Source: Nitrospirota bacterium
GTDB taxonomy: Bacteria > Nitrospirota > Nitrospiria > Nitrospirales > Nitrospiraceae
Direction: 5' to 3'
Assembly: GCA_002737345.1 (NCBI GenBank)
Contig: NSIK01000010.1
Coordinates: 160,906 to 224,905 of the forward strand
Length of the DNA stretch: 64,000 nucleotides
The notes under the pieces are model-generated. The model was not told the origin of the DNA, ran no database searches, and worked only from the letters and a program-made list of their open reading frames with translations. How positions within the stretch are numbered: position 1 is the stretch's first letter; every line of letters begins with the position of its first letter. A program made the translations under genes and the position numbers. Below are positions 23,852-55,370 of the stretch, piece by piece.

Positions 23852-24787
23852 TTACGAGGCTTGAAGTGCCACCATCGATGCGGATCGAGGTGCGGTCATG
23901 GCTGAATGGGGCTCAGGCGCAGCAACGGTTTCGTTGGCGTTGAGCAACACCCAGCTATCAGGGTGGCTGAGAATCTGTTGAACGAGGCGCGTATGCATCG
24001 CATGACCGGAACGCTCTGCGATGATGTGTCCGATAAAGGGCACGCCGAGCAGCGAAAAATCTCCGATCAGATCCAGGATCTTGTGACGAACGAATTCATT
24101 GGGGAAGCGCAGGCCTGATTCGTTGAGAATTCCGTCATGAGAAAGGACGATAGTATTATCCAGGCTGCCGCCATGGCCAAGTCCGCGCGCCCACAGCGCT
24201 TCCACTTCCTGTAAGAAGCCGAAGGTTCTGGCCTCAGAAATCTCACGTTCAAACGCCTGGGCCGAGTGTTCGTAGGTGTAGGTCTGAGTCTGGATCAACG
24301 GATGATTGTAGTGGATGGAGTATGTCATTTTCGTTGTCGCAGAGGGCTCGATGCGGACGTGACGGTTTCCATCGATCACTTCGAGGGGCCGGGTAATTTT
24401 CAAATAGGGCTGCCGGCGATTCTGCGCGAGAATTCCTGCTGATTGAATCAAGCGAACGAAAGGGGCGGAGCTGCCGTCCATGACGGGTGCTTCACTCGCA
24501 TTCACGTCCACATAGACATTGTCGATGCCGAGTCCTGCTAATGCCGCCAGGATATGCTCGATGGTCTTGACCTGAAATCCATTGCCACTGATGGCGGTGC
24601 AGAGGTCGGTCGCCACGAGATGCTCGACGGAGGCCGCGAGAGAGGCTCCGTCTGTGCTGAGCCGGTTTATGAAGACTACGCCGGTATTGACCGGGGCAGC
24701 TCTGAGCGTGAGAGTAACTGGCTCTCCAGAATGGAGTCCAATCCCCGTACAACTCACCGGATTTGCTAACGTTTGCTGAAGCCGCAC
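23852..24787 (-). CDS. lpxC: UDP-3-O-acyl-N-acetylglucosamine deacetylase
   Basis: LpxC catalyses the committed step of lipid A synthesis, so the organism makes LPS. The 311-aa product has the two-domain fold and zinc ligands: His in VKTIEHILAALAG, and His/Asp in RFPNEFVRHKILDLIGDFS. The catalytic His is in GHAMHTRLVQQIL. The N-terminus QTLANPVSCTGIGLHSGEPV is typical. It starts with GTG at 24787 behind GAGGTGA. The C-terminal ~20 residues extend past the usual end and look disordered. The upstream 305 bp are strikingly AT-rich. Confidence 0.96.
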   Translation of the reverse strand: MRLQQTLANPVSCTGIGLHSGEPVTLTLRAAPVNTGVVFINRLSTDGASLAASVEHLVATDLCTAISGNGFQVKTIEHILAALAGLGIDNVYVDVNASEAPVMDGSSAPFVRLIQSAGILAQNRRQPYLKITRPLEVIDGNRHVRIEPSATTKMTYSIHYNHPLIQTQTYTYEHSAQAFEREISEARTFGFLQEVEALWARGLGHGGSLDNTIVLSHDGILNESGLRFPNEFVRHKILDLIGDFSLLGVPFIGHIIAERSGHAMHTRLVQQILSHPDSWVLLNANETVAAPEPHSAMTAPRSASMVALQAS

Positions 24788-25092
24788 TGATCACCTCAAT
24801 AATTTAAACATCATACTAGCAATTCATGTGCCAAGATGAATCAACACGAATAATATGCATAACTTATTGATTATATATCAGAATTAAAACACCGTGCATA
24901 TTTACTTTGTGTTGTAAAAAAAATACATATGTGTTTTTCAGGCTGGGAGCGACTTATTATTGTAGTTCTTTATTACGAGAATGATAAACAGTCGTAGGGG
25001 GTCATTAATTTGTGGCGTGGGTGATCGCAAAGATGGCTGCCTGGCAGAGACGGCGCTCAGCCGGTCCGGCAGGAACGTTCCATCCATACGAA
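24788..25092. other. AT-rich gap of 305 bp upstream of lpxC
   Basis: Most of this gap is clearly AT-rich, with runs such as TTGTAAAAAAAATACATATG, against GC-rich flanks. No ORF is supported. Several TATAAT-like hexamers occur on the lpxC strand but none has a well-spaced -35, so I name no single promoter. It may hold the lpxC promoter, a protein-binding site, or a long leader. Confidence 0.5.
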
Positions 25093-45946: not shown

Positions 45947-47374
45947 CTACTTGCCGATACAGAATTCTGAAAAGATCTGCGCTAAAATTTCGTCCGTCGT
46001 AATGGCCCCGGTAATTTCTCCGAGCGCGTCGGCCGCGGCTCGCACATCGATCGAGACGAGCTCGCCGGCCATTCCACCTTGCACAGACTCAAGGGCCTGG
46101 TCCAGCGATTCACCGGCCCGGCGTAATGCATCACGGTGTCGCACGTTCGTAACCGTGACGCTCTCTGCCCCCTCAAAGCCTCCAGAGACCAGCTGAGCAC
46201 GAAGAGCCGACTTCATCCTCTCCACTCCCAGACCAGTTGTTGCCGAAATAGCGTAGGTCAGATGGCCTGTTAGCGCCGCCTCCGTCGCGAGGGTCTGGGG
46301 AAGATCCGATTTATTGAGCAGCACCAGATGCTTGCGATCGTTGACCGCCTCTAAGAGGTCACGGTCGTCGCTCGTGAGGGGAACAGTTCCATCCAGCACG
46401 ACTAATAAAAGATCCGCTTCGCCTTGCGCGGCGCGCGTCCGTTTGATCCCTTCCCGTTCGACGAGGTCGTCCGTGTCCCGCAGTCCTGCCGTATCAATCA
46501 ACCGAATCATCACTCCGTGGAGATCGATGGATTCCTCGATCACATCCCTCGTCGTGCCGGGAATGGCCGTCACGATGGCGCGGTCTTCTCGTAATAGACG
46601 GTTGAGCAAGCTGGATTTCCCAACATTCGGACGGCCGAGAATGACGACGCGTGCCCCCTCCCGCAAGATCCGTCCCTCCTGTGCCGTGGCTTCGAGTTTC
46701 TGAACTACGGCATAGGCTTCCTTGACGATACGCACCAGCTCATCTCGTTGCAGGAAGGCGATATCTTCATCCACAAAATCGATCCCTGCCTCCACATGGG
46801 CTAACACCGTGAGGAGCGAGGATCTAGCCTGGTCTACTTCGCGGGTGAGCTCACCCCGTAGATGTCGCTGGGCGATATGGAGGCCAGCGGTCGATGTGGC
46901 CCTGATGGTATCGAGGACCGCTTCCGCCTGGGACAGGTCGAGTCGCCCGTTGAGGAATGCCCGCTTTGTAAATTCTCCAGGCTCCGCCATCCGTGCGCCT
47001 GACTCGACGCAGACCTTGCAGATTAGCTCCAGCACCAAAGCCCCGCCATGCGACTGAATCTCAACCACATCTTCTGCGGTAAATGAACGGGGCGCCTTCA
47101 TGTAGACCACGAGGGCTTCGTCGAGCAGGCCAGCAGCCTGCGTGCGATCATGATCGAGCGAACGCTCATTCCGCTTGTCCGCTGCGGGAATCACCAGATC
47201 GGCGAGATAGAGTCTGTGCGAGGAAACCGATGTCAGGGGGCGACCGGAACGTAATCGAACGACCTGGGAGGCGGCAATGAGCGATTGGGGGCCGCTCAGA
47301 CGGACGATCCCGATGCCGCCTTCCCCCATGGGGGTGGCAATGGCGCAGATCGTATCCTCAAGTCCTCCCCGCAT
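45947..47374 (-). CDS. mnmE: tRNA modification GTPase MnmE (TrmE)
   Basis: GTPase partner of MnmG. The 475-aa product has the tetrahydrofolate-binding N-domain, the central helices, and an inserted G domain ([32 protein letters not shown]). It ends with the catalytic CIGK tail (FCIGK). Thirteen bp separate it from mnmG and 56 bp from yidC. Confidence 0.97.
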
Positions 47375-47430
47375 GACATTCTTTCGCTCGGCGCTGCTTC
47401 CCCCAGCGAGGTACTGGTTCCTGGGGGCGG

Positions 47431-49128
47431 TTATGACTTCGCGTTGCTCTGCTCAGGCCCTGTCGAGATGAGGGTCTTGCCGCGGAACAGAAACTGATCC
47501 GTAAATACTTGTTGAGAGATGGTCAGGACGTTGTTCGTCAGCCAATACAGGACAAGCCCTGCAGGGAAATTGACGAACAGGAAGGTCATGAACACTGGGA
47601 GTACCAGCATGATCTTCGCTTGCGTCGGGTCCATTGTGGTGGGCGTGATCTTCTGCTGGATCACCATCGTCGCCCCCATGATTACCGGTAACACATAGTA
47701 GGGATCCTGCACCGACAAATCGGTAACCCAGAGCATGAAGGGCGCTTGGCGCAGATCGATCGTCATGTAGAGGATGTTGAACAGGGCAACGAACACCGGC
47801 ATCTGTAAGATCATCGGGAGGCAGCCGCCCACCGGGTTCACCTTCTGGTCGCGATAGAGTTTGATCAATTCCTTGTTCAGCCGGTCCCGGTCGTCCTTGT
47901 ACTTTTCCTGGACAGCCGCAACCTTGGGCTGGATCAGCTGCATCATCTTCATCGACTTGTAGCTCTTGTACTGCAACGGCACAAACAACAGCTTGATCGC
48001 CAGCGTCAGGAGGATGATGGTGAGCCCGTAGTTATAGGTATAGTCGTGGATGAATCGCAGCACGTAGAAAATCGGCTTGGCCACCGACTTCACCACTGTC
48101 CAACTGCCAAAGATGAACCAGCCGAAATCGATTGTGTCTTCCAGGCCCACGTTCAATGAGCGGAGCGTGTCGTATTCCTTCGGGCCGGCATAGAGCTGGA
48201 GTGCAACAGAGGTCCCTGCGAGAGGCGCGGGCATCCGCACACCGGCCGAGACCACCTTATCGCCTTCTTTTTTGGCTAGCGCGGAGGTTGCCTGTTTCGG
48301 CATCAAGACAGAAAGGAAGTACTTGTCCTGCAACGCGACCCACTGAACCGAGCCCTTCCGCTCAAGCTCCGTGTCGGGCGTTTCCTTTTCTGCCTTGTCG
48401 TCAACCAGCGAAGCTGATCCGATCAGGCCGATGAATCCTTCGCCCCATTCCACGATACCGAAGTTCGTCCCCAGGCTGACATCGTAGGGTTCGGTCACGC
48501 CTTCCAGGGCGACGGCGATATCCACCATGTAACTATTGTGATGAAAGGTTAGCCGTTTCTCCACGCCGAGATGGGTGACGGGATCGTGAAACTGCATCGT
48601 GACATGCCCGACGGGATGGGCTGCATCCAGGGCCGTGAAGTCTTGTTCAATATGATAGAGGCCTTCCTGAATCGTTTTTTCAATCTCGGCGTTCGTCACA
48701 GTAATCGAGAGCGGGCCTCTGAATTTCCCCCCCGAGTAGACGAGTTGTACCGGTTTTTCTTCGGGGGGCGCCGTATGGTAGCGCTTCAACTCCCAACTCT
48801 TGATGACGCCGCCACGATTCGAGAACCCGACCCGCACCAGATTCGTTTCAACCGTTACCGTCTGTTCCAATGTCGTTGGCGAGAGGTTCAGGCCCTGCGC
48901 GGTAGGCTGTTGACCCGATTGGGTGGCGAGGCGTGTGCCAGGGGAACCGCTGTTCTCGCCCGCTACACCCGTAGGACTAGATTCTGGCTCAGTGGAGAAA
49001 GAGCCACGAGCGGACGAGTCCTGGACAGGCACTGGCTCGGGGAGCCAGCCCATCTGTTTCAGGAGCAGGTCGTAGCCCAGGATGATGGCTAACGAGAGAA
49101 CGAGAAAAATGACGACGCGTTTTTCCAT
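47431..49128 (-). CDS. yidC: Membrane protein insertase YidC
   Basis: YidC inserts and folds inner-membrane proteins, alone or with SecYEG. The 565-aa product has the N-terminal membrane helix (VVIFLVLSLAIILGYDLLLK), the large periplasmic beta-domain of the Gram-negative type, and the core insertase with five helices (YNYGLTIILLTLAIKLLFVPL, PVGGCLPMILQMPVFVALF). It begins at the ATG at 49128; the TTG two codons upstream is an alternative. Confidence 0.97.
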   Translation of the reverse strand: MEKRVVIFLVLSLAIILGYDLLLKQMGWLPEPVPVQDSSARGSFSTEPESSPTGVAGENSGSPGTRLATQSGQQPTAQGLNLSPTTLEQTVTVETNLVRVGFSNRGGVIKSWELKRYHTAPPEEKPVQLVYSGGKFRGPLSITVTNAEIEKTIQEGLYHIEQDFTALDAAHPVGHVTMQFHDPVTHLGVEKRLTFHHNSYMVDIAVALEGVTEPYDVSLGTNFGIVEWGEGFIGLIGSASLVDDKAEKETPDTELERKGSVQWVALQDKYFLSVLMPKQATSALAKKEGDKVVSAGVRMPAPLAGTSVALQLYAGPKEYDTLRSLNVGLEDTIDFGWFIFGSWTVVKSVAKPIFYVLRFIHDYTYNYGLTIILLTLAIKLLFVPLQYKSYKSMKMMQLIQPKVAAVQEKYKDDRDRLNKELIKLYRDQKVNPVGGCLPMILQMPVFVALFNILYMTIDLRQAPFMLWVTDLSVQDPYYVLPVIMGATMVIQQKITPTTMDPTQAKIMLVLPVFMTFLFVNFPAGLVLYWLTNNVLTISQQVFTDQFLFRGKTLISTGPEQSNAKS

Positions 49129-49166
49129 GGCCAAATATTATCCAAAATAAACAACGAAGGCCCCCG

Positions 49167-49376
49167 TTACTTCACAGGGTCCATTCCTCCGGGATGAAAC
49201 GGATGGCACTTCAGCAGGCGGCAGGCCGCAAGTCGTAGCCCGCGGGGTACCCCATACCGATCGATTGCAGCACTCGCATATTCAGAGCAGGTCGGCTCGA
49301 AACGGCAGGCCGGTCCGAGAAACGGCGAGATCCAATAGCGGTAACCGGCAAGCAGAGCTAGGCACCAGTGGCGCAT
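49167..49376 (-). CDS. yidD: Membrane protein insertion efficiency factor YidD
   Basis: The 69-aa product has the YidD signature [20 protein letters not shown] followed by [10 protein letters not shown] and CHPFHPGG near the end. YidD assists YidC. It starts 1 bp after rnpA stops and ends 38 bp before yidC, the standard rpmH-rnpA-yidD-yidC order. Confidence 0.95.
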
Positions 49377-49377
49377 G

Positions 49378-49740
49378 CTAGGCCTCAGGGATACGTAAGA
49401 GTCGCTGGCGCTGGAGCGATGACAGCCAGGCCTCTTTCAGGACGGCAAAGGGCTGCAGAATCGATTCCCGTTTGGGAAAGACGACAAGAGCTTGCCCTGG
49501 GATCAATTGATCTTGCACCTGCCGCGTGAGCTCCCGAAACAGACGCTTCGCACGATTCCGGCTGACGGCGCCTCCGAATCGCTTGCCGACGACAATGCCG
49601 ACACGGGAGCCGCTTACCTCAGTCTCGCAAATCATCATATTAAAGAAGGCAGTCGAAATGCGGCGGCCGTGCTTCTTGGCGTGCTCGATATCACGGCTGC
49701 GTTTCAGGAACAGATCCCTGTCAGTTCCACCCTGCGACAT
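49378..49740 (-). CDS. rnpA: Ribonuclease P protein component
   Basis: Protein subunit of RNase P that matures tRNA 5' ends and, here, probably tmRNA. With the start at 49740 the product is 120 aa. The motif [15 protein letters not shown] is present and the RNP-like loop [15 protein letters not shown] precedes it. The ATG at 49740 has CAGGA about 8 bp upstream. The frame is open to 49818 but the added N-terminus is not family-like. Confidence 0.93.
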
Positions 49741-49909
49741 GACGATCATCCTGGGTGAGAGCCAGCTCGCACAGGAGCTCCCTTCGAGTCCAGATCTCCG
49801 GATCTCGATTATGACCACATGTCGTCATTCTGTGAAGGGAACGTCCTTGTTTGGGATACGTACCGAGGGCAAGATTCCTCTCGAAGCCTGCAGGGGTACC
49901 GCTCACTAC

Positions 49910-50047
49910 TTATACGGTTAAGCGGGCCCGACCCTTCGCGCGACGGCGAGCCAAGACCTTGCGGCCATTCTTCGTGCTCATCCGTTTACGAAATCCATGC
50001 TCACGCTTTTTCTTGAGGTTCGAGGGCTGTGCAGATGTAAATGACAT
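49910..50047 (-). CDS. rpmH: 50S ribosomal protein L34
   Basis: The 45-aa product carries the L34 signature: [35 protein letters not shown], then TV and stop. AAGGAGTG lies upstream of the ATG, and a perfect consensus promoter lies 43 bp upstream. It starts the rpmH-rnpA-yidD-yidC block. Confidence 0.96.
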
Positions 50048-50089
50048 TACAATCACTCCTTGCTAAGAATACTCAGGGATTAACGGGGC

Positions 50090-50118
50090 ATTATAGGGGC
50101 GGGGCTGCACTCTGTCAA
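50090..50118 (-). promoter_or_regulatory. Consensus sigma-70 promoter of rpmH
   Basis: On the minus strand TTGACA (50118-50113), a 17-bp spacer and TATAAT (50095-50090), matching both hexamers perfectly. The predicted transcript starts near 50083, 36 nt ahead of rpmH. Confidence 0.85.
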
Positions 50119-50464
50119 ACTGTTGCTCCTTCGAGCGCGGTTGTTTGCGCCTCGGTCCGCGCGCGCGATATTAGCCGGAGGCTCGTGTCACATTGCGAGT
50201 TCCTCCTTCTATACGTACTATAATCATTGAGGCGCTTTTGTCGTGACGGGCTAGACCGCCCCATCACTTTCACAATATTCTCATGGCATTTCCATAATAA
50301 AGCTTTATAATACAAATACTTCGTGCTGATTATTATCGTGGGTTCGCTGGCATAACCCTTGCGAATTAATTCTTGTTCGACGCATCTTGCGTGCGAAGAA
50401 CGGGCGAGTAAACGAAAATAAACAGGAGCGCTGACCCTTAGTCGGCTTTTTAACAAGGAGAGAA
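50119..50464. other. Divergent control region between rpmH and the envelope operon
   Basis: About 345 bp without a protein gene. It contains the sigma-54 element listed below, and a minus-strand AAGGAGG followed by ATGTGA at about 50200, a start-stop element with an overlapping 6-codon GTG frame. No DnaA-box cluster was found, so oriC is not supported here. Confidence 0.5.
50348..50362 (+). promoter_or_regulatory. Predicted sigma-54 (RpoN) promoter
   Basis: TGGCATAACCCTTGC has the -24 GG and -12 GC exactly 12 bp apart and matches the TGGCAC-N5-TTGC consensus except for C to T at one site. The predicted start is near 50373, giving a leader of about 90 nt to the lipoprotein gene. Confidence 0.65.
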
Positions 50465-51085
50465 ATGATGAATACACGAGCAGCAGTCTTGCCAGTTATG
50501 TGCGCTCTTTTGATGCTGACAGCCTGCGCGAAGGCGCCGACGGAACAGATCGCAGCGGCAGAGAAAGCCGTGACCGAGGCGCAGCAGAGCGGCGCCGCAA
50601 CCTATGTCGCGGACGAATATGCCAAAATCGAAGGCACGATGGCAGCGCTCAAGAAAGAAGTGAGCGAGCAGGACGGTAAATTCGCATTGCTGCGCGATTA
50701 CGGGAAGGTCGAGCAGCTCGCCGCCGCCGCCAAGAGTGATGCTGAACGGGTGAAAGTCGAGGCTGCGACGAAGAAGGAAGAGGCGAAAGCCGCCGCACTC
50801 CAAGCTCAACAGGTTGCGCAAGAGGCCGTAGCCTCCACGCTCGCACTCGTCGCCAAAGCGCCTACCGGAAAAGATCGCGCCGCATTAGAGTCGATCAAGG
50901 CCGATGCCAACGCGCTCAAGGAATCGCTCAATCAGGTGCAGACGGCCATCGATGCCGCAGATTACCCGACCGCGCAAACCAAGGCGAAGGCCATTCACGA
51001 GAAGAGCCAGGCTGTGTCCCAGGAAATCAAGGCAGCGCTTGCCAAGATCGGAAAGAGAAAACCTTCTGCAGCAAAGAAGAAGTAA
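50465..51085 (+). CDS. Lipoprotein with coiled-coil body
   Basis: The 206-aa product begins with a signal ending LLMLTAC, so Cys about 21 would be lipidated. The rest is Ala/Lys/Glu-rich and helical, with heptads (KVEAATKKEEAKAAALQAQQ) and a TPR-like C-terminal part (DAADYPTAQTKAKAIHEKSQ). The tail ends in SAAKKK. No enzyme motif. A strong AGGAG ribosome site precedes the ATGs at 50465 and 50468. It heads the operon with two transpeptidases, so a cell-envelope scaffold role is plausible but inferred. Confidence 0.85.
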   Translation: MMNTRAAVLPVMCALLMLTACAKAPTEQIAAAEKAVTEAQQSGAATYVADEYAKIEGTMAALKKEVSEQDGKFALLRDYGKVEQLAAAAKSDAERVKVEAATKKEEAKAAALQAQQVAQEAVASTLALVAKAPTGKDRAALESIKADANALKESLNQVQTAIDAADYPTAQTKAKAIHEKSQAVSQEIKAALAKIGKRKPSAAKKK

Positions 51086-51100
51086 GATAGACTGATCCTA

Positions 51101-52249
51101 ATGTCTGATCACTGTCCACGAGTTAGATCGATCGTCTTGGGGTGGGGAGCCTTGGCGTTAGCCGGTCTGTTCGCTGGCTGCGTGGAGGCCGTGCCTCAAG
51201 ATGCGATCGAAGCGGTTGAAAACATTGATCGGGATCTCATGGAGTTGCGGGCGGCCGAGTTTTCCCCGGTCGACTATGCTCGGTTCGCCCACCAGTGGAT
51301 GGAGCTGAAAAGTCGCGTTCAGGCTGACGAAGATCTGGTTCGCTGGCCCTGGGAGCTCAACGATTTGGAGCTCGCCCTGCGGCGGCTCCAGGAAGAAGGC
51401 TCCCAGACAGTTGCCCGCCTCACTAAAGAGCGCGAAGCGTTGCGCCAGTCAGCGGAAAGCAAGATCGCCCAGGTCGAGGATCGATTTCGGGTCATGGCGG
51501 TGCAAGTCGGCGCCATCGATAGCCGGATCGTGCTGGGGCAGAAACCCGTTGAAACCGATCTGCTCATGAAGCAAGCCCATGCCTTCTACGAGCAGGGCCG
51601 GTACGACCGCTCGCTTGATGCATCGGACCGGGCCGCGCAGAATCTGGCCACGCAAACGATTTTGCTGGGTAATGAGTTTGGCCGATATGCGGATCGCGGG
51701 CAAATCAGCGGCTGGCAACAGATGGCCAAGGACACCATCGCCTGGTCTCGTACCCACCAAACTTCCGCGATTGTGGTCAATAAGGCTGATCGCATATTGA
51801 CTCTCTACCGCAACGGGCAGAAGGTTCTGTCCTATCCTGTTCGTCTCGGTTTCAATGGCATTCGCGAGAAGCGTTATCAGGGCGATGGCGCTACTCCGGA
51901 GGGCCGCTATCGGATCAGCCGTAAACGCGGACAGGGAGAGACGCAGTTTTATCGCGCGTTGGTTCTGGACTATCCCAACGAAGAGGATCGCCGACGCTAT
52001 CGGCTGGAACAAAAGACCGGGCAGATTCCGGCCTCGCGCGCCATCGGGGGGCAAATCGAAATTCACGGGGTCGAGAATCAGTTGATGGCCCAAACATTAG
52101 GGTGCGTCATGCTTGAAAATCCACAGATGACTCAGCTGTTTAATCGAGTCGAGAAGGGCACGCCAGTCACCATCGTTGGCGCGCTGCATGAGCAGAACTC
52201 CGTCGCACAGACGCTAGTGCTGCTGGGTGTTCCACGGGAAGAAACCTAA
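51101..52249 (+). CDS. L,D-transpeptidase (YkuD) with helical N-terminal domain
   Basis: The 382-aa product is a probable lipoprotein (LAGLFAGC, Cys about 27). A helical region at residues 30-200 resembles the preceding lipoprotein. A YkuD domain follows from about residue 225 (AIVVNKADRILTLYRNGQ, GDGATPEGRYRISRK). The catalytic Cys335 is in LGCVMLEN and His322 in IEIHGVEN. The Arg that usually follows the Cys (GCIR) is replaced by Met, so activity may be altered. YkuD enzymes cross-link peptidoglycan or attach Braun-type lipoproteins. Confidence 0.87.
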   Translation: MSDHCPRVRSIVLGWGALALAGLFAGCVEAVPQDAIEAVENIDRDLMELRAAEFSPVDYARFAHQWMELKSRVQADEDLVRWPWELNDLELALRRLQEEGSQTVARLTKEREALRQSAESKIAQVEDRFRVMAVQVGAIDSRIVLGQKPVETDLLMKQAHAFYEQGRYDRSLDASDRAAQNLATQTILLGNEFGRYADRGQISGWQQMAKDTIAWSRTHQTSAIVVNKADRILTLYRNGQKVLSYPVRLGFNGIREKRYQGDGATPEGRYRISRKRGQGETQFYRALVLDYPNEEDRRRYRLEQKTGQIPASRAIGGQIEIHGVENQLMAQTLGCVMLENPQMTQLFNRVEKGTPVTIVGALHEQNSVAQTLVLLGVPREET

Positions 52250-52259
52250 GGGAGGCCTC

Positions 52260-52892
52260 ATGAAGCGCGTCCTCTTATGTGTGTCAGTCGGCCTGATGGG
52301 CCTCTTCCTGGTCACCCTGGTGCAGAGCAGCGGTCTGCCTCTGCCGAAGGCATTAACGGTTCGCCCAGCCACAGTCGATCCCGTCTCGTTGCGCACGCTT
52401 CAGGCTCGCTATAAAACGCTCGCCAAGCAACTGACCCAGTTGATGCCGACGCAGCCCTATATTCTCGTCGACACGGCCCGCAACCATCTCTATATTAAGC
52501 GACAGGATCAGGTTATGTTGGACGCGCTGGCCTCCACTGGCAGCGGCACGATCCTAGACAAGCCGGGCGATTCGAAGAGGCAGTGGATCTTTGATACCCC
52601 CCGGGGGGAATTTGCCGTACAATCGCGGTTGGCCAATCCCGTCTGGGTCAAGCCGGACTGGGCATTTATCGAAGAGGGGCTCGCGGTCCCCAAGAGCCAG
52701 GCCGACCGTCTTGAGTCGGGAGTGCTCGGGGAATATGCCCTCGGCTTCGGGAAGGGTTACTTTATTCACGGGACGCTCTATACCCGCCTCCTCGGGAAAA
52801 ATGTGACGCACGGCTGTATCAGACTAAACGACGACGATCTGAAGAGTGTGTATCGGCTTGCCAAGGTCGGGACGCCGATCATGATTTTCTAA
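52260..52892 (+). CDS. L,D-transpeptidase (YkuD)
   Basis: The 210-aa product has a signal or anchor helix (VLLCVSVGLMGLFLVTLV) and a YkuD domain from residue 60: YILVDTARNHLYIKRQDQVM, FDTPRGEFAVQSRL, and the complete active site THGCIRLNDDDL (His184, Cys186, Arg188). This looks catalytically competent, in contrast to its two neighbours. The ATG at 52260 follows AGGGAGGCC, 10 bp after the previous gene. Confidence 0.9.
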   Translation: MKRVLLCVSVGLMGLFLVTLVQSSGLPLPKALTVRPATVDPVSLRTLQARYKTLAKQLTQLMPTQPYILVDTARNHLYIKRQDQVMLDALASTGSGTILDKPGDSKRQWIFDTPRGEFAVQSRLANPVWVKPDWAFIEEGLAVPKSQADRLESGVLGEYALGFGKGYFIHGTLYTRLLGKNVTHGCIRLNDDDLKSVYRLAKVGTPIMIF

Positions 52893-52914
52893 TCTGCCGC
52901 TTGGCGCAGCCCCT

Positions 52915-53553
52915 ATGACTTTTCTCTGCGCAACGTTCTCCGTTCTCTTATCACTGATTTCGGTAAGCTGGGCTGCCGAGTCGGAGGTCATTCCGCCAGG
53001 GGACTTGGCCGATTCCGCCTCTCTGCAAGAAGCCACCAGAGTGCTGGAAGAAGAGATCAAGCTCGCCGCCAAACCCCAGACCTATGTGTTTATCGATCTC
53101 GTGACCAATGCCATCTTGATTAAGGGGCGGGGCGTCGAGCTCCACCGGATTCCGATTGAACGCTGGTCGGGGTCCGACCTATCGAGGCTTGCAGCCCCGC
53201 GCCGCCTCCGTGAACGTCCGCAAGTGAATCGCCGTAAAATTGATCACACGGCCGTGACGGAGCAAGATCCCATTTCCCTGGTCGACATGCCGACCACCTT
53301 TACGCTCAAATTCGCTCCGCTTTTGACGATCCTCGTCCTTTCCAATACGGACGGCAATCCTTGGCAATGGACCCTACAGCAAGGGCGAGTCTGGTGGAGC
53401 CGGCTCACGGCCTGGGGGCAGATCCTCCGGACTGGAGTCATGTCTCCGCCCCCGCCCTCCCTCAATCTCACCGTTTCGCTCGATCATGCGCAATCGCTCG
53501 CCTGGACGGTCACGGAAGGCATGCCCTTTCTCATCCGTCGCCCCACACCATAG
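52915..53553 (+). CDS. Secreted protein related to the YkuD neighbours, without active-site residues
   Basis: The 212-aa product has a signal peptide (to about residue 20, SWAAES). A segment YVFIDLVTNAILIKGRGVEL resembles the start of the YkuD domain in the preceding gene (YILVDTARNHLYIKRQ), but no His/Cys active site follows. The C-terminal half is Pro- and Trp-rich (QWTLQQGRVWWSRLTAWG). It may be a degenerate paralogue kept for binding. It is 22 bp after the active transpeptidase gene. Confidence 0.7.
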   Translation: MTFLCATFSVLLSLISVSWAAESEVIPPGDLADSASLQEATRVLEEEIKLAAKPQTYVFIDLVTNAILIKGRGVELHRIPIERWSGSDLSRLAAPRRLRERPQVNRRKIDHTAVTEQDPISLVDMPTTFTLKFAPLLTILVLSNTDGNPWQWTLQQGRVWWSRLTAWGQILRTGVMSPPPPSLNLTVSLDHAQSLAWTVTEGMPFLIRRPTP

Positions 53554-53669
53554 AGAGGCCTTATGTTTGTCTTTCGTGCGTCCGATATCTCTACGTTGAG
53601 AAACGATCGATGACCCGGAGCCGTACGAGAAGTGCGGACGGCATAAACGATTCCAGTGGATCGAGCCCC

Positions 53670-55370
53670 ATGAAGCTCAAAACTGCCCAATCATTTTCTC
53701 CAGAACTGCAAAGGCTGGTCACAGCGGCTCACGCGCAACTCACGGCTTCCCGTGCGGTCGAGCGGCTGTGGGCTCGCGATCATCGGCTATGGAAAGAAGA
53801 TCCGACCGACATCACGAACCGTCTCGGCTGGCTGACGATCGTTGGCGAGATGGAAGCGCATGCCGAGGAGTTGCACGTTTTTGCAAATTCCGTGAAGAAT
53901 CGCGGCATCCGCGATGTGATCCTCCTCGGCATGGGCGGGAGTAGCTTGGGTCCTGAAGTGTTGCGCGCCTCGTTTGCATCGAGCCGCGGGTTTCCGCGTT
54001 TGTGGGTCCTCGATTCCACGATCCCCGGCCGGGTTCGGCAGACCACAGAGGCGATTGATCCGGCTCGCAGTTTGTTCATCCTCGCCAGCAAGTCCGGCGG
54101 AACTATCGAGGTTCTGTCCCTCTTCGGCCATTTTTGGGAACTCGTGCATCAGACTCCGGGCCATCAAGGAGGCGAACAGTTTATTGCCATTACTGATCCC
54201 GGCACTGGATTGGAGAAGCTGGCAGCGGAACATCGGTTCGGTCGAGTCTTTACCAGCCCCGCTGACATCGGTGGACGGTATTCGGTGCTCTCCTATTTTG
54301 GGTTGGTTCCGGCGGCGTTGACGGGGATCGATGTGGCGCAGTTGCTGGCACGGGCTGCCATGATGGTTCGCATCTGCCAGGTCCAGGCTCCTCTCGCCCA
54401 TAACCCGGGCGCAGACCTTGGCGCGGCGATGGCCTCATTGGCGCAAGCGGGACGCAATAAGGTCACTATTATTACGTCACCTCAGATCGCGGCTTTTGGT
54501 CTCTGGGCGGAGCAACTGCTCGCAGAAAGCACGGGGAAAGAAGGCACCGGCTTGATTCCTGTCGCGAACGAACCGAGCGTGTCAGCGAAGGCCTATGGCC
54601 AAGATCGGTTGTTCGTGTATCTCCGGCTGAAGAACGATGAGAATAGACGCCTCGATCAGCAAGTCGCCAAGCTGGCTAGAGAGGGCCATCCCGTTCTGAC
54701 CGTCACGCTCCAAGACCGGTACGATCTCGGGGCGGAGTTTTTTCGCTGGGAAGTGGCCACGGCTGTGGCCGGTCATCTCCTGGGGATTCAGCCCTTCGAT
54801 CAACCGAACGTTCAGGAAAGCAAAGACAACACGGCCCGCGTGCTGAAGACCGTTCAATCCACCGGCAAGTTGCCGAAGCAGACCACCGTCACTCCTGCTA
54901 AGGCGGCGGCTCAGCTTAAGCGGCACTGCCGCCCCGGCATCTATGTCGCCATCCTGGCCTACACGACGCCCTCTCCAAAGATGGAGCAGGCCCTTCGTGC
55001 GCTGCGGCGGGCGCTCGTCTCCCATCATCATGTGACGACGACGGCCGGCTATGGGCCTCGTTATCTCCACTCGACAGGCCAGCTCCATAAAGGGGGCCCC
55101 AAGAGCGGAATTTTCTTACAGCTCATCGATCAAATGAGTCCGGATCTCGCGATCCCGGGAGCAGTCTTTACTTTTGGGACGCTTGCGCGGGCCCAGGCAG
55201 CCGGCGACATTCAGGCGCTGCACGCGCATGGCCAGGAGGCCATCGTGATGCCCTTGGGGAAGAACCCGTTTGTGGCGATTCAGGCTTTGACGAAATCTCT
55301 CACGCCCCGTACAAAGGTCCGGCCGTCAACTAGCACGCGCAGCAAGACCAGGGGCAGTAGTCAAAAGTAA
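53670..55370 (+). CDS. pgi: Glucose-6-phosphate isomerase
   Basis: Interconverts glucose-6-P and fructose-6-P. From the ATG at 53670 the product is 566 aa. The SIS domains are visible: ILLGMGGSSLGPEVLR, FILASKSGGTIEVLSLFGHF, FTSPADIGGRYSVLSYFGL, and the C-terminal GPRYLHSTGQLHKGGPKSGI. It is closest to the PGI half of transaldolase-PGI fusion proteins but has no transaldolase domain here. An ATG at 53610 would add 20 residues. It heads pgi-pgl-glk-rpiA. Confidence 0.9.
   Translation: MKLKTAQSFSPELQRLVTAAHAQLTASRAVERLWARDHRLWKEDPTDITNRLGWLTIVGEMEAHAEELHVFANSVKNRGIRDVILLGMGGSSLGPEVLRASFASSRGFPRLWVLDSTIPGRVRQTTEAIDPARSLFILASKSGGTIEVLSLFGHFWELVHQTPGHQGGEQFIAITDPGTGLEKLAAEHRFGRVFTSPADIGGRYSVLSYFGLVPAALTGIDVAQLLARAAMMVRICQVQAPLAHNPGADLGAAMASLAQAGRNKVTIITSPQIAAFGLWAEQLLAESTGKEGTGLIPVANEPSVSAKAYGQDRLFVYLRLKNDENRRLDQQVAKLAREGHPVLTVTLQDRYDLGAEFFRWEVATAVAGHLLGIQPFDQPNVQESKDNTARVLKTVQSTGKLPKQTTVTPAKAAAQLKRHCRPGIYVAILAYTTPSPKMEQALRALRRALVSHHHVTTTAGYGPRYLHSTGQLHKGGPKSGIFLQLIDQMSPDLAIPGAVFTFGTLARAQAAGDIQALHAHGQEAIVMPLGKNPFVAIQALTKSLTPRTKVRPSTSTRSKTRGSSQK

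Follow-up and report, generated by a model that had tools for sequence, protein, structure and literature searches.

Promoters of the sigma-54 type that depend on an activator share a recognizable layout, i.e. -24 and -12 elements at a set spacing and a paired, enhancer-like site 80-150 nt upstream, in genomes that encode rpoN together with activators. Sigma-54 control of lipoprotein and peptidoglycan genes has been predicted across phyla (Francke et al. 2011, PMC3162934), in a text that does not mention transpeptidases. In Rhodobacter the NtrYX system acts through a few direct sites at envelope genes (PMC7240162). In E. coli, DpaA/LdtF (YafK) and Lpp bring together a YkuD hydrolase in which the Arg of transpeptidases is missing, a YkuD transpeptidase, and a helical lipoprotein whose C-terminus is basic (PMC8263019). 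Here we describe a four-gene envelope operon of Nitrospira that is preceded by a sigma-54 element and an inverted repeat. It lies in a stretch of 64,000 nt (contig NSIK01000010.1, positions 160,906 to 224,905), which we call the window, in a genome of 1.67 Mb that is 91.6% complete (G000). The named genomes with related loci are all Nitrospira, metagenome-assembled genomes of N. lenta being the nearest; these are slow-growing nitrite oxidisers of importance to nitrogen cycling and wastewater treatment.

The locus has the layout of the known sigma-54 promoters, a promoter type that is not new. In the papers searched, however, we found neither a description of the half-site, TGWGGCRNTYTKGY, nor any mention of such a binding site or of the promoter type being used in this way. 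In contrast to the survey of Francke et al., the present case is a specific operon with its own predicted activator site, and that site differs from the one of Rhodobacter.

The sigma-54 element and the upstream inverted repeat

The following features make up the promoter region (window positions):
50348-50362, + strand: sigma-54 -24/-12 element TGGCATAACCCTTGC, a 15-mer with GG and GC 10 nt apart in a TGGCAY-N5-TTGC context
50374, + strand: predicted transcription start, 12 nt after the C of the -12 element, where the general geometry of sigma-54 promoters places it
50228-50241, + strand: left arm (arm A) of the predicted activator site, TGAGGCGCTTTTGT, a conserved alignment block
50250-50263, - strand: right arm of the predicted activator site, in inverted orientation, TGGGGCGGTCTAGC, which agrees with the left arm at 9/14 positions

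An earlier note, made from the sequence alone, had claimed a sigma-54 element with correct -24/-12 spacing about 90 nt before a lipoprotein gene. Both points hold: the 15-mer is where it was said to be and ends 102 nt from the ATG of the lipoprotein gene, and the predicted start is about 91 nt from that ATG. The window contains two copies of TGGCA-N6-TTGC, where 0.7 are expected per 64 kb, so a single match is not significant and it is conservation that carries the case. The operon was compared at 80 loci in named genomes, 76 of which have enough upstream sequence for a census of the element. The automatic census, with the pattern TGGYAY-N5-YTGC, found it at 72 of the 76, and in three more (L214, L217 and L220) it is located farther upstream, in L220 before an extra small Lys-rich gene, which gives a total of 75/76. 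The reversed pattern was found at 0/72 loci and the opposite strand gave 1/72. A chance match is therefore ruled out by the conservation rather than by the count within the window. Beyond the window all TGGCA-N6-TTGC sites of G000, which was scanned by exact pattern only, fall within open reading frames. We are nearly certain that this is a genuine sigma-54 promoter.

The alignment of the upstream regions shows one conserved block amid variable surrounding sequence, and this block is the inverted repeat. Arm A is present with at most 2 mismatches in 70/72 loci; its distance upstream from the -24 element is 111-132 nt, mostly 117-122 nt. A TG-GGC pattern at fixed positions is common to both arms across 70 loci, with one exception in one arm, and within it the TG and the GG do not vary in either half-site. 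The repeat is perfect in L226 (TGAGGCACTTTGG-N10-CCAAAGTGCCTCA) and near-perfect in the g28 genomes. The arms span 34-36 nt; in G032 the span is 46 nt, i.e. close to one extra helical turn, which fits a pair of proteins bound on one face of the DNA. The earlier note had proposed a search for an activator-binding palindrome at 50220-50330, and the repeat lies within this interval. In all likelihood it is the activator site of this promoter, as predicted from its sequence and placement.

Of 175 family genomes, 19 have one match each to a genus-specific pattern of the repeat, and 96 have matches, nearly always a single one, to a looser pattern. Where examined, the matches lie nearly always at the operon. 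In L227 and L229 there is a second target, a gene for a small secreted Lys-rich protein that is not next to rpmH and has both the repeat and a sigma-54 element upstream. The matches of the looser pattern in L233 and L234 are probably due to chance.

The conserved element and the upstream palindrome support the claim that the promoter is of the activator-requiring type, and control of the operon by sigma-54 plus an activator acting from these sites may be predicted with high confidence. RNA polymerase with sigma-54 would wait at 50348-50362 until an activator (a bacterial enhancer-binding protein) bound to the repeat at 50228-50263 loops over, hydrolyses ATP and opens the promoter. It is thus very likely that a dedicated signal switches the operon on and that the operon is not constitutive. 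Sigma-54 promoters are usually predicted singly and from a weak consensus; here the prediction draws on dozens of species and on a precisely placed paired site.

Genes of the operon and their neighbours

The genes of the operon and the neighbouring features are:
50465-51085, + strand: helical lipoprotein with lipobox LTAC and a basic tail ending in AKKK; a weak match to DUF4398 is below the cut-off
51101-52249, + strand: LDT1, a probable lipoprotein with a C-terminal YkuD domain and the motif IHG...TLGCVML, DpaA/Csd6-like
52260-52892, + strand: LDT2, a YkuD L,D-transpeptidase with the motif THGCIRL, LdtE/LdtA-C-like
52915-53553, + strand: fourth gene, encoding a secreted protein with a YkuD-like fold and no catalytic Cys
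49910-50047, - strand: rpmH (ribosomal protein L34), the divergent neighbour
50118-50090, - strand: divergent sigma-70 promoter of rpmH, TTGACA-17-TATAAT, 12/12 consensus
50298-50310, no strand assigned: position, about -50 from the -24 element, at which many relatives have a weak IHF-like site; degenerate in this genome

The content of the operon is as the earlier note described it, i.e. a lipoprotein, two YkuD-domain proteins and a fourth gene, with intergenic gaps of 10-22 nt. The divergent rpmH promoter is likewise a consensus, as it was said to be, and is of the sigma-70 type. In nearly all of the 80 named loci with readable neighbours the operon is flanked by rnpA/rpmH and pgi, and the same layout is present in N. 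moscoviensis (L154), together with the element and the repeat.

The two YkuD proteins had both been called transpeptidases, which is borne out for LDT2 and not for LDT1. LDT2 scores 72.9 bits against the Pfam YkuD cut-off of 23.4, and its motif THGC[IV]RL is found in 73/76 loci. The motif of LDT1, TLGC[VIL][MQ][LM], is found in 79/80 loci and lacks an Arg at the second position after the Cys; the protein also carries a lipobox. With 33.1 bits against a cut-off of 365 for the NCBIfam DpaA family, LDT1 is not assigned to DpaA. Among solved structures its closest relatives are 8ikr and 4xzz, which we take to be DpaA and Csd6, respectively. An Arg at the second position after the Cys is reported to be missing from most DpaA-like enzymes (PMC8263019). 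From its motifs LDT1 looks like a DpaA-type hydrolase. The fourth protein, which had been described as related, has the YkuD-like fold but lacks the catalytic cysteine, since there is no Cys outside its signal peptide. The best matches of its model (mean predicted local distance difference test, pLDDT, 74.5) are all L,D-transpeptidase folds and are weak (E at least 0.002, template modelling score about 0.3-0.4). By sequence and model it is a non-catalytic YkuD-like protein.

The suggestion that a cross-linking activity is switched on therefore does not stand as worded: only LDT2 has the transpeptidase motif, while LDT1 is DpaA-like and the fourth protein appears non-catalytic, so that the module may detach as well as attach. 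Of the four products that the promoter would turn on, the lipoprotein has a basic tail, LDT1 is a DpaA-like YkuD hydrolase, LDT2 is a YkuD transpeptidase and the last is a YkuD-like protein that is catalytically dead. When the envelope is under stress, this module would most likely remodel the covalent attachment of outer-membrane (lipo)proteins to peptidoglycan. Because it is drawn from motifs, the attach/detach function is something that we infer, and a module that links outer membrane and peptidoglycan in this way is a possibility that we put forward tentatively. Sigma-54 genes often respond to nitrogen, but nothing was found that links this operon to it.

The resemblance to the E. coli DpaA-Lpp system described above has its limits, in that LDT1 is below the DpaA cut-off, the lipoprotein is not Braun's, and all components are encoded in one sigma-54 operon. 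If the attach/detach reading is true, a system like Braun's lipoprotein and DpaA would exist outside the Enterobacteria and under on/off control.

Copies in decay are found in one part of the genus, the lipoprotein gene being affected first and LDT1 next. The former is disrupted or missing in L013-L016 and L023-L027, and stop codons interrupt the latter in L023-L026; in some of these (L023, L024 and L026) the decay is accompanied by a damaged element or repeat. The first gene of the operon is also variable. In N. moscoviensis-like genomes its product is Lys-rich and similar to the separate repeat target of L227 and L229, and in L154, L161, L206, L215 and L220 the first operon gene encodes a small secreted Ala/Pro/Lys-rich protein.

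Candidate activators and alternative explanations

One copy of rpoN is present in each of 12 genomes, including G000. Full-length sigma-54 activators, i.e. proteins with the interaction domain and a helix-turn-helix (HTH), number three in G000 and four in G020. As there are only three candidates in the genome, the pairing of activator and promoter becomes readily testable. The candidates are:
Activator A, G000:C31:51704-53137 and L081:7702-9138 (- strand): 1058-residue kinase partner; four Cys in CGFQSCPYTGGLPQESCGFC between AAA and HTH
Activator B, G000:C29:145437-146828: NtrYX-like, an NtrX-like regulator with an NtrY_N kinase
Activator C, G000:C29:160410-161807: two-component regulator with a membrane kinase

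An assignment by co-distribution within the genus was dropped, because all three are core genes whether or not the operon is present; only the family-level boundary is thus informative. C is present in 22/22 family genomes tested, with 67-85% identity (its own copy aside) and a recognition helix that is unchanged where readable. In f3, which is outside the family, C is represented only by paralogues of 48-49%, and the f3 operon has sigma-54 elements while the repeat was not found there. A and B are order-wide and their recognition helix is the same in f3. Since C and the repeat share the family boundary, whereas the helices of A and B do not change across it, C is modestly favoured as the best candidate activator, a choice that we hold with some reserve. 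The activator loci were searched for the repeat or a sigma-54 element as signs of autoregulation, and nothing convincing was found. Control by sigma-54 may predate the activator site described here. In the order-level relative G057 two LDT operons (L028 and L030) have sigma-54 elements without the repeat and share a different upstream sequence around GGACA.

Several observations weigh against parts of the above interpretation. L151 is a clear exception, in which the genes are intact while the element and most of the repeat are lost, i.e. the combination of genes kept and element missing, named in the earlier note as refuting its proposal, occurs in 1/76 loci, and apart from this one the proposal withstands that test. 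The right arm in the window matches the left arm at only 9/14 positions. The best IHF matches cluster near -50 in about 35/77 cases and are weak, the one in the window being degenerate. The C-terminal residue of the lipoprotein is Lys in 52/79 loci and Arg in 14; a Braun-type terminal Lys in all lipoproteins, which seemed invariant in the genus, thus fails across the family. LDT1 is not detectable in 10/32 genus members, and the module is therefore dispensable. Finally, A, B and C occur in nearly every genus member searched, operon present or not.

The exception of L151 would be expected if the operon were transcribed mainly from an intergenic sigma-70 promoter and the -24/-12 match were incidental or secondary, and there are 10/12 sigma-70-like matches ending at 50298 and 50311. 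However, the alignment shows no conservation of these hexamers, in contrast to the sigma-54 element and the repeat, and the repeat itself is ruled out as a -35/-10 pair by the 46-nt spacing in G032, so that we regard this explanation as very improbable. It is also conceivable that the repeat, which sits between two divergent promoters and whose binding protein is only predicted, is the site of a repressor or an architectural protein, or that it serves rpmH. Its near-fixed distance to the -24 element is, however, typical of enhancer sites, it joins sigma-54 elements at loci without rpmH (L227 and L229), and the pattern scans find none in the operon-less members of the genus, which must carry rpmH. 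This makes such a role quite improbable.

Other alternatives retain the sigma-54 promoter and differ in the activator. The NtrYX system (B) has in its favour that the genome encodes a close NtrX-like regulator together with an NtrY_N kinase, and that NtrX of Rhodobacter has binding sites upstream of genes for peptidoglycan, division and lipoproteins (PMC7240162), i.e. it would act here as it does in the envelope control of that genus. On the other hand, the proposed NtrX motif, GCAn9TGC, is not at this promoter (no match in window positions 46335-54986), and the NtrX helix is the same in the order-level family whose operon shows no repeat; B as the activator is somewhat unlikely. Control by A would make the operon redox- or nitrite-responsive. 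A is one of only three full activators and has the four cysteines in CGFQSCPYTGGLPQESCGFC, but it is order-wide with an unchanged helix and the repeat was not found at its own locus, and we consider this reading unlikely. Activator A is possibly a metal or redox sensor, and its gene adjoins secDF and apparent respiratory accessory genes.

In several of L012-L016 and L023-L027 an IHF-type sequence (TAACCCATTGATA in some) abuts the left arm on its promoter-distal side.

A second sigma-54 element, at lpxC

The product of lpxC catalyses the committed step of lipopolysaccharide synthesis. The gene is found in the window together with a sigma-54 element:
24833-24819, - strand: sigma-54 element TGGCACATGAATTGC, about 32 nt upstream of lpxC
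23852-24787, - strand: lpxC

The element is present in 22/22 genus loci, where its position relative to the start codon is -46 to -50, and three loci of another family have it as well. About 101 nt upstream, near 24910-24935, there is a conserved block, which reads TCACAGGTGT...TTTACAAC in most loci and CACATATGT...TTTACAAC here, and which differs from the inverted repeat of the operon. Sigma-54 at lpxC has a precedent, since a survey of 2025 reported sigma-54 enrichment for LpxC (COG0774) in Myxococcia (PMC12316311). Sigma-54 could be mainly an envelope sigma factor in this small-genome Nitrospira, although we would rather doubt than assert it. If this is true, a few activators drive the module that links peptidoglycan and outer membrane and, via a separate block, lpxC, and it is sigma-54 signals, not nitrogen status, that set the two outer layers. 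Between the block and the element at lpxC there is a perfect IHF consensus, AATCAATAAGTTA, at 24860-24872, and the same is seen in 9/21 other loci.

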